A DNA stretch of 14,445 nt from Pseudomonadota bacterium. GTDB taxonomy: Bacteria; Pseudomonadota; Gammaproteobacteria; Burkholderiales; Burkholderiaceae_C. Position numbers and translations under genes: made by a program. Where the stretch lies: contig JAUPTP010000013.1 in assembly GCA_030918015.1 (NCBI GenBank), forward strand, positions 1 through 14,445. Reading direction: 5' to 3'. The notes below the pieces were generated by a model. It saw only the letters and a program-made list of their open reading frames with translations. It was not told the origin of the DNA and did not search any database. Below, in pieces: positions 4,819 to 13,810 of the stretch; position 1 is the first letter of the stretch; each line of letters starts with the position of its first letter.

Positions 4819-4894
4819 TGCAATCCATAAAGACCCTCCGAATAAAATGGCCTTCTTCATGCGATCGGCGCATGTGGATCCTCGAATCGATTCG

Positions 4895-4923
4895 TTGGCC
4901 GCAGAAGGACAGCTGCCTAGCAT
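4895..4923 (+). promoter_or_regulatory. Predicted sigma-70-type promoter of sbp
   Basis: TTGGCC (4895-4900) and TAGCAT (4918-4923) are separated by exactly 17 bp, which predicts a start near 4930 and a leader of about 32 bases before the sbp ATG. The block CGTTGGCCGCAGAAGGAC (4893-4910) is nearly identical to the one in front of the cysP-like gene. Both boxes are weak matches to consensus, as expected for a promoter that needs an activator. The AT-richer DNA upstream, including the run around 4841-4848, is a plausible activator region. Confidence 0.55.
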
Positions 4924-6692: not shown

Positions 6693-6911
6693 TCACAGCG
6701 CCGCGATCGACACCTCGGTCGACTTGACCAGCGCGATGACCTCGCGCCCGATCTCCAGACCCAGCTCCTGGACCGAGCGAGTGGTGATGACCGAGGTGAC
6801 GATCAGCCCCTGGGGCGTCTCGACGTCGATCTCGGAGACGACCGGGCCCAGGATGATCTCGCGGACGACGCCACGGAACTGGTTGCGGACATTGATGGCG
6901 GTGATGCTCAT
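6693..6911 (-). CDS. ssuF: Mop/TOBE-domain molybdate- or molybdopterin-binding protein (SsuF-like)
   Basis: This 72-residue protein is a single Mop-type TOBE domain, which in known Mop proteins assembles into hexamers that bind molybdate. The pattern is clear: INVRNQFRGVVREIILGPVVSEIDVE, then ITTRSVQELGLEIGREVIALVKSTEVSIA, matching the ITxxSxxxLGLxxGxxVxAxxKxxxV signature. The ATG at 6911 has a good AAGGA about 9 bases upstream. It follows ssuE by 36 bases on the same strand. A gene for such a protein (ssuF) belongs to the ssuEADCBF locus of Pseudomonas putida, which supports the symbol. Here it sits next to ssuE rather than after ssuB. Its role in sulfonate use is not understood; molybdate or another oxyanion may be the ligand. 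Confidence 0.87.
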   Translation of the reverse strand: MSITAINVRNQFRGVVREIILGPVVSEIDVETPQGLIVTSVITTRSVQELGLEIGREVIALVKSTEVSIAAL

Positions 6912-6947: not shown

Positions 6948-7520
6948 TCAGAGCGCCCAGCGCAGCGCGGCGGGCAGACGGGCGCCGGCGCGCTGCGGCG
7001 CCAGCCGTTCGACCAGTTCGCCGACGACGCGCTCCAGGCGCGCCACGGTCGCCTCGTCGAGCCGGTGGCGGCCGTCAGGCAGGCGCTCGATCTGGCGGTC
7101 GGTGGCGTAGACGCCGTCGGCGATGTCGCGTGCACCCAGTGCGGCCAGCACCGGCTTGAGGGCGTACTCCAGCGCCAGCAGATGCGCCGGGCTGCCACCG
7201 GTGGCCAGCGGCAGCACCGTGCGCCCGGCCAGGCCGTCCTGCGGCAGCAGATCGAGCAGACTCTTGAGCAGGCCGCTGTAGGCGGCCTTGTAGATCGGCG
7301 TGGCGACGAGCACCAGCCGCGCCCGGCCGATGCGCTCGCGCACCTCGGCGATGGCCGGATCGTCGAAGCGTGCCTGCAGCAGCGCCTCGGCGGGCAGGTC
7401 GCGCACCCGGATGGTGTCGATGCGGGTGGCATGGGGCTCGAGCAGCGAGCGGGCGTGGTCCAGCAGTCCGGCCGAGCGCGAGGGCTCGGAGGGGCTGCCC
7501 AGCAGGCAGACGATGTTCAT
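6948..7520 (-). CDS. ssuE: NADPH-dependent FMN reductase SsuE
   Basis: This is the flavodoxin-like reductase that supplies FMNH2 to the SsuD monooxygenase. It has 190 residues; E. coli SsuE has 191. The FMN phosphate loop is GSPSEPSRSAGLL near residue 8. VATPIYKAAYSGLLKSLLDLLPQ (72-94) is the flavin/dimer segment. LATGGSPAHLLALEYALKPVL (105-125) follows and includes Tyr119, the equivalent of the pi-helix Tyr118 of the E. coli enzyme. The ATG at 7520 aligns with the start of E. coli SsuE; longer in-frame starts run into the palindromic control region. Only a weak CAGGG precedes the start. It is divergent from the ssuAADCB operon and is followed by the Mop gene, so reductase and monooxygenase are made from opposite sides of one control region. 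Confidence 0.93.
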   Translation of the reverse strand: MNIVCLLGSPSEPSRSAGLLDHARSLLEPHATRIDTIRVRDLPAEALLQARFDDPAIAEVRERIGRARLVLVATPIYKAAYSGLLKSLLDLLPQDGLAGRTVLPLATGGSPAHLLALEYALKPVLAALGARDIADGVYATDRQIERLPDGRHRLDEATVARLERVVGELVERLAPQRAGARLPAALRWAL

Positions 7521-7527
7521 GCCCTGC

Positions 7528-7556
7528 ACGATAGGCAGCACCGTGCCCCCCGGGAA
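7528..7556 (-). promoter_or_regulatory. Candidate promoter of ssuE-ssuF
   Basis: Read on the minus strand, CGTT runs into the hexamer TTCCCG (7556-7551), and 17 bp later comes TATCGT (7533-7528). This is the mirror image of the ssuA promoter candidate. The predicted start would fall at about 7521, leaving essentially no leader before the ssuE ATG at 7520. Either ssuE has a leaderless message or the arm is an operator and the true promoter lies nearer the centre. Confidence 0.35.
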
Positions 7557-7629
7557 CGAAGCATTCCGAGGATGCTTCGGCGGAAAGCGCCTCAGGCGCG
7601 CAGCGGATAAGCAGCGCCGGAATGCTTCG

Positions 7630-7658
7630 TTCACGCCGGCCACGGCGCTGCCTATCGT
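7630..7658 (+). promoter_or_regulatory. Candidate promoter of ssuAADCB
   Basis: TTCACG (7630-7635) and TATCGT (7653-7658) are 17 bp apart and lie inside the right arm of the palindrome, with CGTT overlapping the upstream hexamer as in the sbp and cysP promoters. The predicted start is near 7665, giving a leader of about 36 bases with a good GGAG before the ssuA1 ATG. Both hexamers are poor consensus matches, so activation is probably needed. Confidence 0.4.
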
Positions 7659-7689
7659 GGCGGACATCGAGCCCGATCACGGGCCGCCA

Positions 7690-7705
7690 CGGAGTCCGCC
7701 ATGTC
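7690..7705 (+). repeat. Translation-start repeat, copy 1 (ssuA1)
   Basis: CGGAGTCCGCCATGTC, which includes the Shine-Dalgarno GGAG and the first codons, is identical to the sequence at 8711-8726 before ssuA2. It is likely a remnant of the tandem duplication that gave the two binding-protein genes, or kept to match their translation rates. Confidence 0.75.
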
Positions 7706-8705
7706 CCGCATCCCTTTGTCTCTCGCCTCCTTCCGGCCCCTGCGCCGACGCCTGGCCGCCGCGCTGGCGCTGATCCCGCTGGCCCTGGCCGCCCCGGCGC
7801 TGCAGGCCCAGGACAGCGCCCGCCCGCTGCTGCGCATCGGCTATCAGAAGTCCGCCAGCCTGCTGGCGCTGCAGAAGGCCCAGGGCTCGCTCGAGCGCCG
7901 GCTCGCGGCGCTGCAGGCCGACGTGAAGTGGGTCGAGTTCCCCGCCGGCCCGCAGCTGCTCGAGGGGCTCAACGTCGGCTCGGTCGACGTGGGCTTCGTC
8001 GGCGAGGCGCCGCCGATCTTCGCGCAGGCCGCCGGCGCGAACTTCATCTACATCGGCAACGACCCGGCCTCGCCTCAGGCCGAGGCCATCGTCGTGCCGA
8101 AGGAGTCCGCGATCCGCACGCTGGCCGACCTGAAGGGCCGCCGCATCGCGCTGAACAAGGGCAGCAACGTGCACTACCTGCTGGTGCGCGCGCTGGAGAA
8201 GGCCGGGCTGAAGTACGGCGACATCCAGCCGGTCTTCCTGCCGCCGGCCGATGCGCGCGCCGCCTTCGAGAAGGGCGCGGTCGACGCCTGGGTGATCTGG
8301 GATCCGTTCCTGGCGGCGGTGGAGAAGCAGACCGGCGCGCGCCTGCTCGCCGACGGACGCGGCCTGGTCAGCAACCACGCCTTCTATCTGGCCGAGCGCC
8401 AGTTCACGCAGAAGCATCCGCAGCTGGTGCGCGCGCTGTTCGAGGACAGCGTCGAGCAGGGCCGCTGGCTCAAGGCCAACCTGAAGGAGGCCGCGCGCCG
8501 CATCGCGCCGGTCCAGGGCCTGGATGTCGATGTGGTCGAGCGCACGCTGCAGCGCGCCGAGTACGGCGTGGCGCCGGTGACGCCCGGCGTCGCCGCCGAG
8601 CAGCAGAAGGTGGCCGATGCCTTCCTGGAGCTGAAGCTGATCCCCAAGCCGGTGCGCATCGCCGACGCGCTGCCGGCCACGCCCGTCACCACCGCCGCCC
8701 GCTGA
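7701..8705 (+). CDS. ssuA: Sulfonate ABC transporter substrate-binding protein 1 (SsuA family)
   Basis: This is a periplasmic receptor delivering aliphatic sulfonates to SsuCB, with 334 residues. The signal peptide covers about residues 1-36, with an Arg-rich n-region and an Ala/Leu core. The mature fold starts LLRIGYQK. Family blocks follow: [48 protein letters not shown] and VDAWVIWDP. The segment after GSVD reads VGFVGEAPP, where E. coli SsuA and the neighbouring ssuA2 have GSTGD; the second ligand loop is NKGSN instead of QKGSS. These changes suggest different ligand preference, which is inference. GGAG sits 7 bases before the ATG. It is the first gene of a five-gene forward operon, 16 bases ahead of its paralogue. 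Confidence 0.9.
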   Translation: MSRIPLSLASFRPLRRRLAAALALIPLALAAPALQAQDSARPLLRIGYQKSASLLALQKAQGSLERRLAALQADVKWVEFPAGPQLLEGLNVGSVDVGFVGEAPPIFAQAAGANFIYIGNDPASPQAEAIVVPKESAIRTLADLKGRRIALNKGSNVHYLLVRALEKAGLKYGDIQPVFLPPADARAAFEKGAVDAWVIWDPFLAAVEKQTGARLLADGRGLVSNHAFYLAERQFTQKHPQLVRALFEDSVEQGRWLKANLKEAARRIAPVQGLDVDVVERTLQRAEYGVAPVTPGVAAEQQKVADAFLELKLIPKPVRIADALPATPVTTAAR

Positions 8706-8710
8706 ACGCC

Positions 8711-8726
8711 CGGAGTCCGCCATGTC
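8711..8726 (+). repeat. Translation-start repeat, copy 2 (ssuA2)
   Basis: This is the second identical copy of CGGAGTCCGCCATGTC and covers the Shine-Dalgarno sequence and start of ssuA2. The coding sequences diverge immediately after it, so the conserved 16-mer stands out. Confidence 0.75.
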
Positions 8727-9726
8727 TCACCGCACCGTCTCGCGGCCTCGCCGCACCGTGCTGGCCTCGGCGCTGGCGCTGGGCCTGCTGCCCGCGCTGT
8801 CGGTCACGCCGGCCTTTGGCCAGGCCAGTCCGGCTGCCGCACCGACCGATCTGCGCATCGGCTTCCAGAAGGGCTCGATCGCGCTGGCGCTGCTGCGCCA
8901 GCAGGGCCTGCTGGAGCGCCGCCTGCCCGGCACCCGGGTGCGCTGGGTCGAGTTTCCGGCCGGCCCGCAGCTGCTGGAGGCGCTGGCCGTCGGCAGCATC
9001 GATGTCGGCTCCACCGGCGACGCGCCGCCGGTCTTCGCCCAGGCCGCCGGCAAGGATCTGGTCTATGTCGGCGCCGAAGCCCCGAAGCCGGAGGCCTCGG
9101 CCATCCTGGTGCGCGCCGACAGCCCGATCCGCCAGGCGCGCGACCTGAAAGGCCGGCGCATCGCGCTGCAGAAGGGCTCGAGCGCGCATTACCTGCTGGT
9201 GCGCGCCGTCGAGCAGGCCGGGCTGGCCTGGGGCGACATCGAGCCGATCTGGCTGACGCCGGCCGAGGCCCGCGCCGCCTTCGAGAAGGGCTCGGTCGAT
9301 GCCTGGGTGATCTGGGATCCGTACTACGCCGCCGCCGAGATCGACGGCCGGGCACGCGTGCTGCTGACCGGCCGTGCCCTGAGCGGCAACAACAGCTTCT
9401 ACCTCACCTCGCCCGGCTTCGCCGCCGATCACGGCGCGACGCTGCAGACGCTGTTCGCCGCGCTGAGCGAGTCCGACCGCCTGCTGCAGCAGGACCGCCC
9501 CGCCGCTGCGGCGCTCTACGCCGACTTCGCCGGCCTCAGCCTGGGCACGGTGCTGCGGGTGCTCTCGCGCCGGCCGCCCTCGCCGGTCGGCCCGGTCACG
9601 CCGGCCCTGGTGGCCGAGCAGCAGCGGGTCGCCGACACCTTCCACCGCCTGGGCCTGATCCCGCGCGCCATCCACGTCGCCGCCATCGTGCGCCAGCCCG
9701 GCCAGCGCCTGGCCTCGGCACGCTGA
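8722..9726 (+). CDS. ssuA: Sulfonate ABC transporter substrate-binding protein 2 (SsuA family)
   Basis: This second receptor has 334 residues, and by eye about half are identical to ssuA1. The signal peptide is about residues 1-35 with a [18 protein letters not shown] stretch that could be read by Sec or, less likely, Tat. Ligand blocks match E. coli SsuA closely: [68 protein letters not shown] and [13 protein letters not shown]. It is therefore the more canonical alkanesulfonate receptor of the pair. It lies 16 bases after ssuA1 and 26 bases before ssuD. Having two receptors and one SsuCB permease suggests both dock on the same transporter with different substrates. Confidence 0.91.
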
Positions 9727-9752
9727 CCCGCCTCAAGACGAACAAGCTCATC

Positions 9753-10922
9753 ATGAAGATCTTCTGGTTCATTCCCACCCACGGCGAAACCCGCTACCTC
9801 GGCACGAACCACGGTGCCCGCCAGGCCGACTTCGCCTATTTCAAGCAGGTCGCGATCGCCGCCGACAGCCTGGGCTACGAAGGCGTGCTGATCCCGACCG
9901 GCCGCTCCTGCGAGGACTCCTGGATCGTCGCGGCCAGCCTGATCGACGCGACCCGGCGGCTGAAATTCCTCGTCGCGCTGCGCCCCGGGCTGGTGGCGCC
10001 GTCGCAGTCGGCGCGCATGGCCGCGACGCTGGACCGCCTCTCGGGCGGGCGGCTGCTGGTCAATCTGGTCACCGGCGGCGATCCGGGCGAGCTCGCCGGC
10101 GACGGCCAGTTCCTGAGCCATGCCGAGCGCTACCAGGAGTCGGGCGAGTTCATCCGCATCTGGAAGGAGATCATCGCCCGCTCCCACGAGGGCGAGGCCG
10201 TCGACTTCGAGGGGCGGCACCTGCGGGTCGAGGGCGCGAAGCTGCTCTACCCGACCTGGTCGCGGCCGCATCCGCCGGTCTTCTTCGGCGGCTCGTCGGA
10301 GGCCGCGCACGAGCTGGCCGCCGCCGAGGTCGAGACCTACCTCACCTGGGGCGAGCCGCCCGAGGCGGTCGCGGCCAAGGTGGCCGACGTGAAGGCGCGC
10401 GCCGCCAAGCTCGGCCGCACGCTCCAGTTCGGCATCCGGCTGCATGTCATCGTGCGCGAGACCGAGGACGAGGCCTGGCGCGCCGCCGCCGAGCTGGTCT
10501 CGCACCTCGACGAGGAGACGGTCGAGACCGCGCAGCGCAAGTTCGCGCAGATGGACTCGGCCGGCCAGCGCCGCATGGCCGAGCTGCACCGCGGCAAGTT
10601 CAACCGCGCCAATGTGCGCGAGGGCCTGGAGATCTCGCCCAACCTGTGGGCGGGCGTCGGCCTGGTGCGTGGCGGCGCCGGCACCGCGCTGGTCGGCAGC
10701 GCGCAGCAGGTGGCCGACCGCATCAAGGAATACGCCGCGCTGGGACTGGATCACTTCGTGCTGTCGGGCTATCCGCACCTGGACGAGGCGCACCGCTTCG
10801 CCGAGCTGGTCTTCCCGCTGCTGCCGCTGGAGCTGCGCGAGCGCCTGCCCGGCCAGGCACTGACCGGCCCCTTCGGCGAGATCGTCGCCAACAGCTTCGT
10901 GCCCAAGGTGGCACAGAGCTGA
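9753..10922 (+). CDS. ssuD: FMNH2-dependent alkanesulfonate monooxygenase SsuD
   Basis: SsuD uses O2 and FMNH2 from SsuE to cleave the C-S bond of alkanesulfonates, giving the aldehyde and sulfite for cysteine synthesis. It has 389 residues (E. coli 381) and a bacterial-luciferase-type TIM barrel. Active-site residues are present: Cys53 in PTGRSCED, Arg229 and His231 in GIRLHVIV, Arg306 in the mobile loop [13 protein letters not shown], and Tyr340 in SGYPHL. These correspond to Cys54, Arg226, His228, Arg297 and Tyr331 of the E. coli enzyme. The extra length lies mainly in a linker around residues 281-290 just before the mobile loop. No clear Shine-Dalgarno precedes the ATG, so it may depend on translation of ssuA2. 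The C-terminus PKVAQS matches E. coli. Confidence 0.96.
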
Positions 10923-10950
10923 CGCACCGCACGACGCAGGAGACCGTCCG

Positions 10951-11751
10951 ATGACGACATCCGAGACCCCACGCACGGGCCACGGGCAGCGGCTCCTGCC
11001 CTGGCTGGTGCCGCTGCTGATCCTGCTGGGCTGGGAGGCCGCCTCGCTCTCGGGCTGGCTGTCCAGCCGGGTGCTGCCGGAGCCGCTGGCGGTGGCGAGT
11101 GCCTTCGTCCGCCTCGCGCTGTCGGGCGAGCTGCTCGAGCATGTGCTGGTGAGCACCCGGCGCGCGCTGCTGGGCTTTGCCATCGGCGGCAGCACCGGGC
11201 TGCTGCTGGGCCTGCTCACCGGCACCTTCCGCCAGGCCGAGACGCTGCTCGACTCGACGCTGCAGATGGTGCGCAACATCCCGCCGCTGGCGCTGATCCC
11301 GCTGGTGATCCTGTGGTTCGGCATCGACGAGACCGCCAAGCTCTTCCTGGTGGCGCTGGGCGTGTTCTTTCCGGTGTATCTCAACACCTTCCACGGCATC
11401 CGCTCGGTGGACAAGGGGCTGATCGAGATGGCGCGCAGCTACGGTCTCTCCGGCCGGGCACTCTACGCGCAGGTCATCCTGCCGGGCGCGCTGCCCTCGA
11501 TCCTGGTGGGCGTGCGCTTCTCGCTCGGGCTGATGTGGGTGCTGCTGATCGTGGCCGAGACCCTCTCCGCCCAGGCCGGCATCGGCTACCTGACGATGAA
11601 CGCCCGCGAGTTCCTGCAGACCGACGTGGTGCTGGTGGGCATCCTGCTCTACGCGCTGCTGGGCAAGCTGGCCGACCTGCTGGCCCGGGCGCTGGAGCGC
11701 CGCTGGCTGCGCTGGCATCCGGGCTATGCCCGCCCGGGCGTGCGCGCCTGA
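10951..11751 (+). CDS. ssuC: Sulfonate ABC transporter permease SsuC
   Basis: This is the inner-membrane permease of the sulfonate importer, with 266 residues (E. coli 263) and about six hydrophobic helices. The first is LLPWLVPLLILLGW (15-28). The cytoplasmic EAA loop that docks on the ATPase is at 159-178, beginning EMARSYGLSGRALYAQ and ending VILP. VRNIPPLALIPLVILWFGI (108-126) is typical of the SsuC/TauC family. A good GGAG precedes the ATG by 9 bases. It is 28 bases downstream of ssuD and 20 bases upstream of ssuB. Confidence 0.95.
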   Translation: MTTSETPRTGHGQRLLPWLVPLLILLGWEAASLSGWLSSRVLPEPLAVASAFVRLALSGELLEHVLVSTRRALLGFAIGGSTGLLLGLLTGTFRQAETLLDSTLQMVRNIPPLALIPLVILWFGIDETAKLFLVALGVFFPVYLNTFHGIRSVDKGLIEMARSYGLSGRALYAQVILPGALPSILVGVRFSLGLMWVLLIVAETLSAQAGIGYLTMNAREFLQTDVVLVGILLYALLGKLADLLARALERRWLRWHPGYARPGVRA

Positions 11752-11771
11752 TTCCCTGCTGATCCGAGATC

Positions 11772-12659
11772 ATGACCCTGACCCTGAAGCTGCCCTCCAC
11801 GTCCGAGGCGCCTTGCGCGCCGCAGTCTGCGCCCCGCACGCTGCAGCGCGGCCGCCCCGTCCCCGAGCACGGCCTGTCGGTCGATCTGGCCGGCCTGGGC
11901 AAGTCCTACGGCGCGCGGCGCATCCTGGGCGAGGCCGAGGCCGGCCTGGACCTGCGCATCGCGCCGGGCGAGTTCGTCGCCATCGTCGGGCGCAGCGGCT
12001 GCGGCAAGAGCACGCTGCTGCGCCTGGTCGCCGGGCTGGAGACGGCCGACACCGGCCGGCTCGCGCTCGGCGGCGACACCGGCGCCGCGGCCCGCGCCGA
12101 CCTGCGCATCATGTTCCAGGACGCGCGGCTGCTGCCCTGGAAGCGCGTGATCGACAACGTGCGCCTCGGGCTGGATGGCGAGGCCGGGCGCGCGCGGGCC
12201 GCCGAGGCCTTGGCACAGGTCGGCCTGGCCGACCGGGGTGGCGACTGGCCGGCGGTGCTCTCGGGCGGCCAGCGCCAGCGCGTCGCGCTGGCCCGCGCGC
12301 TGGTGCACCGCCCGCGACTGCTGCTGCTCGACGAGCCGCTGGGCGCGCTCGACGCGCTGACCCGCATCGAGATGCACCGGCTGATCGAGTCGCTGTGGCT
12401 CGCGCACGGCTTCACCGCGCTGCTGGTCACGCACGATGTGGCCGAGGCGGTGGCGCTGGCCGACCGGGTGCTGCTGGTCGAGGACGGCCGCATCGCTCTG
12501 GACCGCCGCATCGACCTGCCCCGGCCGCGCTCGCATGGCTCGCCCGCCTTCGCCGCACTGGAGGACGAGATCCTCGGCCGCGTGCTGCAGCGCCCGGGCA
12601 GCGAGCCGCCCGCACCCGTGGCACCGCTGGCCCCACAAGCGCTGCGCTGGGCGATCTGA
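11772..12659 (+). CDS. ssuB: Sulfonate ABC transporter ATPase SsuB
   Basis: This is the cytoplasmic ATPase energising SsuC, with 295 residues, longer than E. coli SsuB (255) through an extra 35-residue N-terminus and a Pro-rich C-terminus. All ATPase motifs are intact: Walker [10 protein letters not shown] (73-81), Q-loop Gln116 in [11 protein letters not shown], signature [15 protein letters not shown] (163-177), Walker [13 protein letters not shown] (183-194) and switch His221 in [24 protein letters not shown] is the usual SsuB/TauB wording. The ATG at 11772 has only a weak CCGAGA upstream; a later in-frame start that removes the extra N-terminus is possible. It closes the ssuAADCB operon, with no strong terminator after it. 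Confidence 0.93.
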
Positions 12660-12704: not shown

Positions 12705-12728
12705 TGCATAAGTAACCAACAAAAAATG
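12691..12728. promoter_or_regulatory. AT-rich upstream activator region of cysP
   Basis: This is the most AT-rich stretch of the window. It contains the perfect palindrome TTATGCATAA (12702-12711) and a six-A run (12721-12726) directly upstream of the predicted cysP -35. AT-rich sites just upstream of -35 are typical for CysB-type LysR activators of sulfate-uptake genes; binding by CysB is inference. Confidence 0.4.
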
Positions 12729-12730
12729 CG

Positions 12731-12759
12731 TTGTCCGCAGAAAGGACGGATTCTAGGAT
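12731..12759 (+). promoter_or_regulatory. Predicted sigma-70-type promoter of cysP-cysT
   Basis: TTGTCC (12731-12736) and TAGGAT (12754-12759) are 17 bp apart, predicting a start near 12766 and a leader of about 28 bases. The block CGTTGTCCGCAGAAAGGAC (12729-12747) repeats that in front of sbp with one substitution and one inserted base, and both are followed by CTAG-N-ATC at the same distance from the -35. Confidence 0.6.
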
Positions 12760-12793: not shown

Positions 12794-13810
12794 ATGCCGC
12801 ACCCGACACGCCGTCATCTTCTGCGCACTGCCACCGCCGCCGCCGGCCTGCTGATGCTGGGCGCCGCGCAGGCCGCGGCGCCTGCGCTGCTCAACGTCAG
12901 CTACGACGTCTCGCGCGAGTTCTACAAGGACATCAACAAGGCCTTCGCCGCGCAGTGGAAGAAGACCACCGGCGAGGACATCGTGCTGAACCAGTCGCAC
13001 GGCGGCTCGAGCAAGCAGGCACGCAGCGTGATCGAGGGCCTGGAGGCCGACGTCATCACGATGAATCAGGCGCTCGACATCGAGGTGGTCGCCGACAAGG
13101 GGCTGATCGCCGCCGACTGGGCCCGGCGTCTGCCCAACAACGCCGCACCGACCAGCTCGCTCACCATCTTCCTGGTGCGCAAGGGCAATCCGAAGGGCGT
13201 GAAGGACTGGGCCGATCTGGCCCGCGCAGGCACCTCGGTCGTCATCCCGAACCCGAAGGTGACCGGCAACGGCCGCTACGGCTACCTGGCCGCCTGGGGT
13301 TCGGTGATCCAGGCCGGCGGCACGCCGGCGCAGGCGCGCGAGCTGACCCAGAAGATCTTCGCCAACGTGCCGGTCTTCGACGGCGGCGGCCGCGCCGCCA
13401 CCACGACCTTCGCGCAGCGCGGCATCGGCGACGTGCTGGTGACCTTCGAGAGCGAGGTGCAGTCCATCGTCGAGGAGTTCGGCAAGAACTTCGACATGGT
13501 CTATCCGAAGCGCACCGTGCTGGCCGAGAACCCGGTCGCGGTGGTCGACAAGGTGGTCGACCGCAAGGGCACGCGCAAGGCCGCCGAGGCCTATCTGAAA
13601 TACCTCTGGAGCGAGGAAGCCCAGGAGATCGCCGCCAAGCACAACCTGCGCGTGCGCGATCCGAAGGTGGCGGCGAAGTACGCCAAGGATTTCCCGGCCG
13701 TGCCGACCTTCACCGTCGACGAGGTGTTCGGCGGCTGGAAGAAGGCGCAGGCCGAGCACTTCAACGACGGCGGCATCTACGACCAGATCCTCGGCGCCGC
13801 CCGCAAGTAA
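12794..13810 (+). CDS. cysP: Periplasmic sulfate/thiosulfate-binding protein (CysP-like)
   Basis: This is the receptor for a CysTWA importer, with 338 residues. The signal peptide is about residues 1-27, cleaved after AQA. It contains TRRHLLR, which resembles a twin-arginine motif but also fits Sec. The mature part starts PALLNVSYDVSREFYKDINK. Compared with the Sbp gene at 4962 it follows the CysP branch: QSHGGSSKQARSVIEGLEAD, ITMNQALDIE, RLPNNAAP, FDGGGRAATTTFAQRGIGDV and TFESEV. The ligand segment is NPKVTGNGRYGYLAAWG, where Sbp has SGG and Trp. The ATG at 12794 begins the signal peptide; no strong Shine-Dalgarno is seen. It is 17 bases upstream of cysT, the normal cysP-cysT order. It might accept sulfate as well as thiosulfate. 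Confidence 0.88.
   Translation: MPHPTRRHLLRTATAAAGLLMLGAAQAAAPALLNVSYDVSREFYKDINKAFAAQWKKTTGEDIVLNQSHGGSSKQARSVIEGLEADVITMNQALDIEVVADKGLIAADWARRLPNNAAPTSSLTIFLVRKGNPKGVKDWADLARAGTSVVIPNPKVTGNGRYGYLAAWGSVIQAGGTPAQARELTQKIFANVPVFDGGGRAATTTFAQRGIGDVLVTFESEVQSIVEEFGKNFDMVYPKRTVLAENPVAVVDKVVDRKGTRKAAEAYLKYLWSEEAQEIAAKHNLRVRDPKVAAKYAKDFPAVPTFTVDEVFGGWKKAQAEHFNDGGIYDQILGAARK

Follow-up and report, generated by a model that had tools for sequence, protein, structure and literature searches.

The ssu locus and its features

The DNA analysed here, called the window, is a stretch of 14,445 nucleotides that makes up an entire contig of a 69% complete genome (G000). Its ssuA1 is 98% identical to that of Leptothrix sp. 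C29 (G012, hereafter C29), which belongs to the same genus; the records L008 and G012/L089 of C29 are one by their coordinates and were counted once. The ssu genes of the window form two divergent units, ssuE–ssuF to the left and ssuA1-A2-D-C-B to the right. The features discussed below are the following.

4872–4896, plus strand: 25-bp box with 1 mismatch, followed after 20 bp by CTAGCAT and ahead of a sulfate-binding-protein gene (sbp) that starts at about 4962
6693–6911, minus strand: ssuF-like gene, second of the leftward unit, for a 72-residue molybdopterin-binding (TOBE/Mop) protein (TIGR00638, PF03459)
6948–7520, minus strand: ssuE, NADPH-dependent FMN reductase (above the curated cut-off of TIGR03567, residues 2–171 on profile positions 1–170)
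7528–7533, minus strand: putative −10-like element of the ssuE promoter, TATCGT, proposed from CTATCGTG at 20 bp from the box
7551–7556, minus strand: mirror counterpart of the weak −35-like TTCACG, read from the sequence
7555–7579, minus strand: left 25-bp operator-like box on the ssuE side, CGAAGCA-N11-CTTCGTT (2 mismatches to the consensus)
7580–7606, no strand: computed 27-bp gap between the boxes, with the symmetry centre at 7593
7607–7631, plus strand: right 25-bp operator-like box on the ssuA1 side, ATAAGCA-N11-CTTCGTT (exact match to the consensus)
7630–7635, plus strand: weak −35-like TTCACG, read from the sequence; its first two bases are also the final two of the right box, and 17 bp separate it from the −10
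7653–7658, plus strand: putative −10-like element of the ssuA1 promoter, TATCGT, proposed from the sequence and the box spacing (predicted leader about 36 nt)
7701–8705, plus strand: ssuA1, aliphatic sulfonate binding protein, first rightward gene (NF008588 and TIGR01728 above cut-off)
8722–12659, plus strand: ssuA2, ssuD, ssuC and ssuB (NCBIfam NF008588, TIGR03565, NF008470 and NF008420)
12708–12732, plus strand: same box with 2 mismatches, followed after 20 bp by CTAGGAT and ahead of a second sulfate-binding-protein gene (12794–13810)

The best profile match of ssuB is NF008420, with a score below the cut-off of that profile. The ssu cluster is flanked by the two sulfate-binding-protein genes that carry the box, and from these genes onward the window looks like a single sulfur-starvation island. 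A gene for an RBBP9-type serine hydrolase (PF06821, 5990–6595) is the next gene after sbp and points towards ssuF; the Azohydromonas locus L013 has a homologue that comes after ssuF.

Symmetry of the intergenic region

A 133-bp palindrome (7527–7659) had been described between ssuE and ssuA1 in the sequence-only reading, and it is real. The outer arms (7527–7545 and 7641–7659) match at 18 of 19 positions. The inner arms, GAACGAAGCATTCCG and its inverted counterpart, correspond without mismatch at 15 of 15, and so does the core GCGCCT-C-AGGCGC; all three elements have their centre at 7593. Arms of 66 nt mirrored around this position agree at 51 of 66 bases, whereas the runner-up centre within the 14,445-nt window reaches 39 matches and the best centre in each of 20 first-order Markov sequences as long as the window scores 34–39. 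An inverted-repeat search returns a single repeat (7519–7592 and 7594–7667, 74 nt, 76% complementary). The extra copy of a short segment that had been seen between the arms is present as well (ATGCTTCG at 7572–7579). The two start codons are indeed unequally placed, the distances being 6 and 41 bases, instead of 7 and 42 as first counted: 6 bases separate the ATG of ssuE (7518–7520) from the left arm, and 41 bases separate the right arm from the ATG of ssuA1 at 7701.

As single-stranded DNA, the segment 7519–7667 has a predicted folding energy of −54.2 kcal/mol, compared to −33.2 ± 2.9 kcal/mol for 200 shuffled sequences (z −7.3). That the palindrome is a structural or mobile DNA element (a cruciform, a transcription terminator, a REP-like repeat or the end of an insertion element) is nevertheless extremely improbable, despite this strong predicted hairpin: there is no T-run terminator, the palindrome is upstream of both inferred transcription starts and would thus not be transcribed from them, and the further copies that mark a mobile or REP-like repeat were not found in the 69% complete genome, where the matches off the locus span at most 45 bp (best E 0.017, with 40 of 56 candidates scored).

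A box and a putative promoter in each half

The regions upstream of ssuE in relatives share a layout: a 25-bp box, ATAWSSA-N11-MTTCGTT, is followed after 20 bp by CTATCGTG or another TA-containing −10. The two halves of the box are 11 bases apart in 20 of 21 such regions and TA is at the expected position in 19 of 21, counts that illustrate the layout rather than its frequency, since the 21 relatives were chosen by eye and the fit scored these very features. Both arms of the palindrome fit this layout, the right box exactly and the left box with 2 mismatches, and altogether four boxes of the window sit 20 bp ahead of TAnnnT. These four boxes precede sulfur-assimilation genes, namely ssuE, ssuA1 and two sbp genes, and in many Burkholderiales the box likewise lies ahead of ssuE or sbp. 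When up to 3 mismatches are allowed, a fifth match appears inside ssuB (12370); shuffled sequences give 1.04 matches on average, and this one is probably due to chance.

A conserved site at a fixed distance from the −10, overlapping the −35, is expected of a CysB/SsuR-type promoter, and such a site is seen here, although the −35 itself is weak. Each half of the palindrome therefore looks like an activator site with a complete promoter of its own. A scan of 7400–7800 with the sigma-70 consensus finds no promoter, as expected if an activator is required. From the usual distance to the −10, transcription is predicted to start at about 7521 leftward and at about 7665 rightward; the former start would leave the ssuE mRNA with little or no leader. 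The ATG of ssuE is 7 bases from its own −10-like element (7518–7533), and the layout is similar in Azohydromonas (L013).

Distribution of the box and its candidate ligand

We searched for the box in 80 loci of relatives, fetched by their similarity to ssuA1. The exact box has 17 matches in these loci, 16 of which lie in the last 100 bp before ssuE, ssuA1 or sbp. Where ssuE is co-directional with ssuA1, 22 of 64 loci have the box with no more than 1 mismatch in the 200 bp ahead of ssuE; none of 192 coding control segments contains a site with fewer than 3 mismatches. In the remaining 42 loci, the closest match ahead of ssuE has at least 3. In many of these 42 loci sbp lies upstream, and some of them carry the box ahead of sbp. 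In 13 genomes of the same genus there are six exact boxes, and the reversed pattern does not occur. According to gene names that were taken from reading the translations, two of the six are at ssuA1 (in the window and in C29), three are ahead of an sbp-like gene and one is ahead of a gene for an outer-membrane-like protein. The box is specific.

In G005 (L096, 1501–1525), an exact box precedes the gene of an outer-membrane FadL-like protein, also named from its translation. The ssuE promoter of E. coli K-12 was considered as a carrier of the box and rejected: its best site has 3 mismatches and there is no convincing box. No paper on the motif was found in the open-licence literature, which was queried with part of its letters and covers few of the subscription papers; the motif may well be published.

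The likely ligand of the box is an activator of the CysB/SsuR type, since LysR regulators of the CysB family are encoded in these genomes: one in G000 (on contig C160) and two in C29 (on C12 and C6), all above the cut-off of PRK12684. Published footprints of CysB and SsuR adjoin the −35, and their sites lie over it. For SsuR of Burkholderia cenocepacia, about 44 bp adjoining the −35 are reportedly needed. In C29, the copy of the CysB-family gene on C12 is just beyond what we read as sulfate-transport genes, which themselves come after the ssu and sbp genes.

A regulator other than CysB/SsuR could read the box instead, which we regard as distinctly unlikely. Some head-to-head pairs of boxes in other genomes (see below) adjoin genes that have no obvious role in sulfur metabolism (GATase_4/EAL, AMP-binding, TonB receptor), and the exact box of the genus that precedes the FadL-like gene, as read from its translation, points in the same direction. 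On the contrary, the majority of the boxes precede ssu, sbp, tauD-, sfnB- or rhodanese-type genes, the box lies over the −35 as CysB/SsuR sites do, and one of the three exact boxes at sbp-like genes of the genus, that of G004, has a divergent gene of the CysB family on its other side.

The arrangement resembles the ssu and tau promoters of Proteobacteria that are activated by CysB, Cbl or SsuR: the ssu genes, the LysR-type site that abuts or overlaps a weak −35 and the presence of CysB-family genes are common to both. The difference is that ssuE precedes ssuA1 in the same direction in 64 of 80 loci, whereas the window appears to have two copies of the promoter that face apart. Like divergent LysR-regulated promoters, the window has two operons that diverge from a shared regulatory region; however, the partner in such promoters is classically the regulator gene and one site is shared, while here neither partner encodes a regulator and each side seems to have its own site and promoter.

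Head-to-head boxes in other genomes

Pairs of boxes on opposite strands were searched for with a pattern that admits gaps of 12–42 bp only, and which the pair of the window itself escapes, its left box deviating from the consensus; flanking genes were named for selected loci rather than on both sides of every match. In the window's own family, a pair occurs in 4 of 299 genomes (0 for the reversed control), with gaps of 14, 14, 19 and 32 bp. The neighbours include genes for an NMT1-type binding protein and OsmC, TauD- and SfnB-like proteins, a rhodanese and TctC and, in one case, a TonB receptor. G002, of the same genus, has a head-to-head pair with a gap of 25 bp at a different gene pair.

For the family to which Massilia sp. 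CF038 belongs, the same search gives pairs in 25 of 195 genomes (1 of 195 for the reversed control). Their neighbours include ssuE in 14 cases and an ssuA-type gene in 2, while for six of them (L120–L125, gaps of 34 or 36 bp) the neighbours match none of the query genes. The pair of L120 lies between genes for a class-II glutamine amidotransferase (GATase_4) and an EAL-domain protein; L121 and L122 read alike.

The pairs beside ssuE, these 14 and two more, 16 in all (Massilia sp. CF038, two Duganella and 13 other genomes of the CF038 family), resemble that of the window in the box, in its opposite orientations and in the gap, which is 26 bp in eight of them and 27 bp in the other eight. They differ from it in the gene pair, an sfnB-like gene being on the opposite side in 15 of 16, and in the likeness of the two boxes, which are 52–68% identical in 15 of 16. 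The exception is G887 (L119, 1500–1574), where the region from ssuE to an sfnB-like gene contains two boxes identical over 25 bp. Among these 16 loci, gaps of the same length are 71% identical in sequence on average and 44% at the lowest. In 12 other distinct pairs, 25–41 of 61–73 mirrored positions match, compared to 51 of 67 here; the closest in symmetry is again G887 (41/67). The unusual feature of the window's pair is the extent of its symmetry.

Helical phasing of the paired boxes was set aside as a general rule: gaps of 25–28 and 34–38 bp seemed to be one turn apart, but those of 14, 14, 19 and 32 bp did not fit. An order-wide search gave one pair in 399 genomes, which we read as a chance match: it is AT-rich, no query gene is adjacent and the reversed control occurs in one other genome. 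The pairs of G949 (gap 30) and G865 (gap 13), with no query genes adjacent, may be due to chance as well.

It may be that the paired sites form one joint complex, by contact between activator dimers or by a loop, which maintains the symmetry and the 27-bp gap; this idea is compatible with a duplication and is not weighed as exclusive of it, and we find it rather doubtful. It would account for a gap of 26 or 27 bp that recurs in 16 loci beside ssuE despite the divergence of the gap sequences, for the 27 bp of the window and for the 25 bp of G002 at another gene pair. However, the conserved gap comes from orthologous loci, the other pairs are less symmetric than that of the window, and both halves have their own promoter-like −10 at the standard distance. 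Moreover, the gaps of other lineages (14, 14, 19, 28, 32 and 34–38 bp, plus the doubtful 13 and 30) reveal no obligatory spacing, and this variation, from 14 to 38 bp even when the doubtful matches are omitted, argues against a single obligatory joint complex.

Origin of the palindrome

The gene order of the window is unusual. Among the 80 loci, ssuE is directly upstream of ssuA1 and co-directional in 64, divergent in one (C29) and elsewhere in two; 13 have no match to ssuE. A co-directional order with a single promoter is what is expected of relatives if the promoter was duplicated in inverted orientation, and the 64 co-directional loci agree with this. In addition, ssuF is behind ssuE in the window and in C29, while it is 3′ of the ssu operon in most of the other loci that have a match to it. 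This lineage has therefore undergone a rearrangement of the gene order.

Outside the boxes, the two halves of the window have the same base at 31 of 44 positions. None of 171 pairs of other promoters agrees so well: their mean is 16.2 (sd 4.9) and their maximum 29, in a comparison set that is the more demanding for including some related species. Such halves would be explained if the ssu promoter had been duplicated in inverted orientation, and we read the palindrome as an inverted copy of this promoter that arose as ssuE was turned round. No undoubled intermediate was seen, and the palindrome was found in only two independent genomes (G000 and C29); a pattern that combines one −10 with both TTCGTT ends, spaced as in the window, matches G000 alone among 299 genomes of the family, a sample that excludes C29.

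Conservation of the arms in close relatives with the same divergent genes had been suggested as a check, for which C29 is the one usable genome. In C29 the two boxes, their 27-bp gap and the two −10-like elements are all preserved, but the left spacer differs. Within the palindrome the two sequences differ at 8 positions, 7 of which are clustered in 9 bp of this spacer (7540–7548). Because of these seven changes, the halves of C29 share only 26 of the 44 non-box positions, a value within the range of other pairs, so that the likeness beyond the boxes is apparent in the window and would not be from C29 alone.

The value for C29 bears on the possibility that the two promoters are alike through convergent selection for one regulator, without any duplication. 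Two selected copies would indeed share the boxes, the distances and the −10, which are the conserved parts of such promoters, and in C29 they agree no better elsewhere than other pairs do. Against this, the halves of the window also share bases in the spacer, the N11 and the inner flank, parts that vary widely among other promoters, and their agreement tops every pair of the comparison set, made stricter by its related species. We consider convergence rather unlikely.

Quasipalindromes are homogenised by template switching, according to two reports, and the examples described there resemble the window in being imperfect inverted repeats with a clustered multi-base difference between relatives (PMC7202029, PMC8604942). 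Head-to-head promoters of the CysB type might likewise evolve in concert, each half overwriting the other by template switching within the quasipalindrome, a proposal that we think improbable here. At the seven clustered positions, the base of the window equals that of its mirror arm at 6, and the base of C29 at 1; the two boxes of G887, identical over 25 bp, are a further sign. Conversely, a 13-mer of the ssuE coding region (7210–7222) recurs exactly in the left spacer (7534–7546) and fits the window block equally well, which weakens the case for arm-to-arm conversion in the window, and the spacer block of C29 has 10-mer matches within 1 kb. If true, concerted evolution would make the two operons continue to respond to one and the same level of activator.

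A probable shared switch for two operons

Taken together, we consider it very probable that the palindrome consists of two near-identical, complete promoters placed head to head, activated by a regulator of the CysB family, and that it arose by inverted copying when ssuE–ssuF was turned. From the centre outward, each half would comprise a 25-bp activator site that overlaps a weak −35, a 20-bp spacer and the −10 TATCGT. Under a shortage of sulfate or cysteine, a LysR-type activator of the CysB family (CysB or an SsuR-like paralogue) would bind each site and recruit RNA polymerase to its own promoter on each side, so that the leftward ssuE–ssuF and the rightward ssuA1-A2-D-C-B would be switched on together. 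The mirror symmetry would result from the second promoter having been copied in inverted orientation from the first, upon the turning of ssuE–ssuF against the rest of the operon.

The sequence-only reading had proposed a duplicated and inverted control module that ties both units to one regulator complex or allows looping between paired sites. The module itself fits well, each half having the box and promoter of relatives and the halves looking like copies; a single complex or a loop agrees less with halves that look self-sufficient and with gaps that vary. It is an ordinary co-regulation, reached by an unusual duplicated layout.

For the organism, paired like promoters would make two sulfonate-scavenging operons inducible together. 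For the Burkholderiales, the box ATAWSSA-N11-MTTCGTT, 20 bp before TAnnnT, is a testable candidate for the operator of sulfur-starvation genes. Last, the locus may be a natural example of an operon that was split into two divergent units and kept its co-regulation by copying its promoter in inverted orientation.
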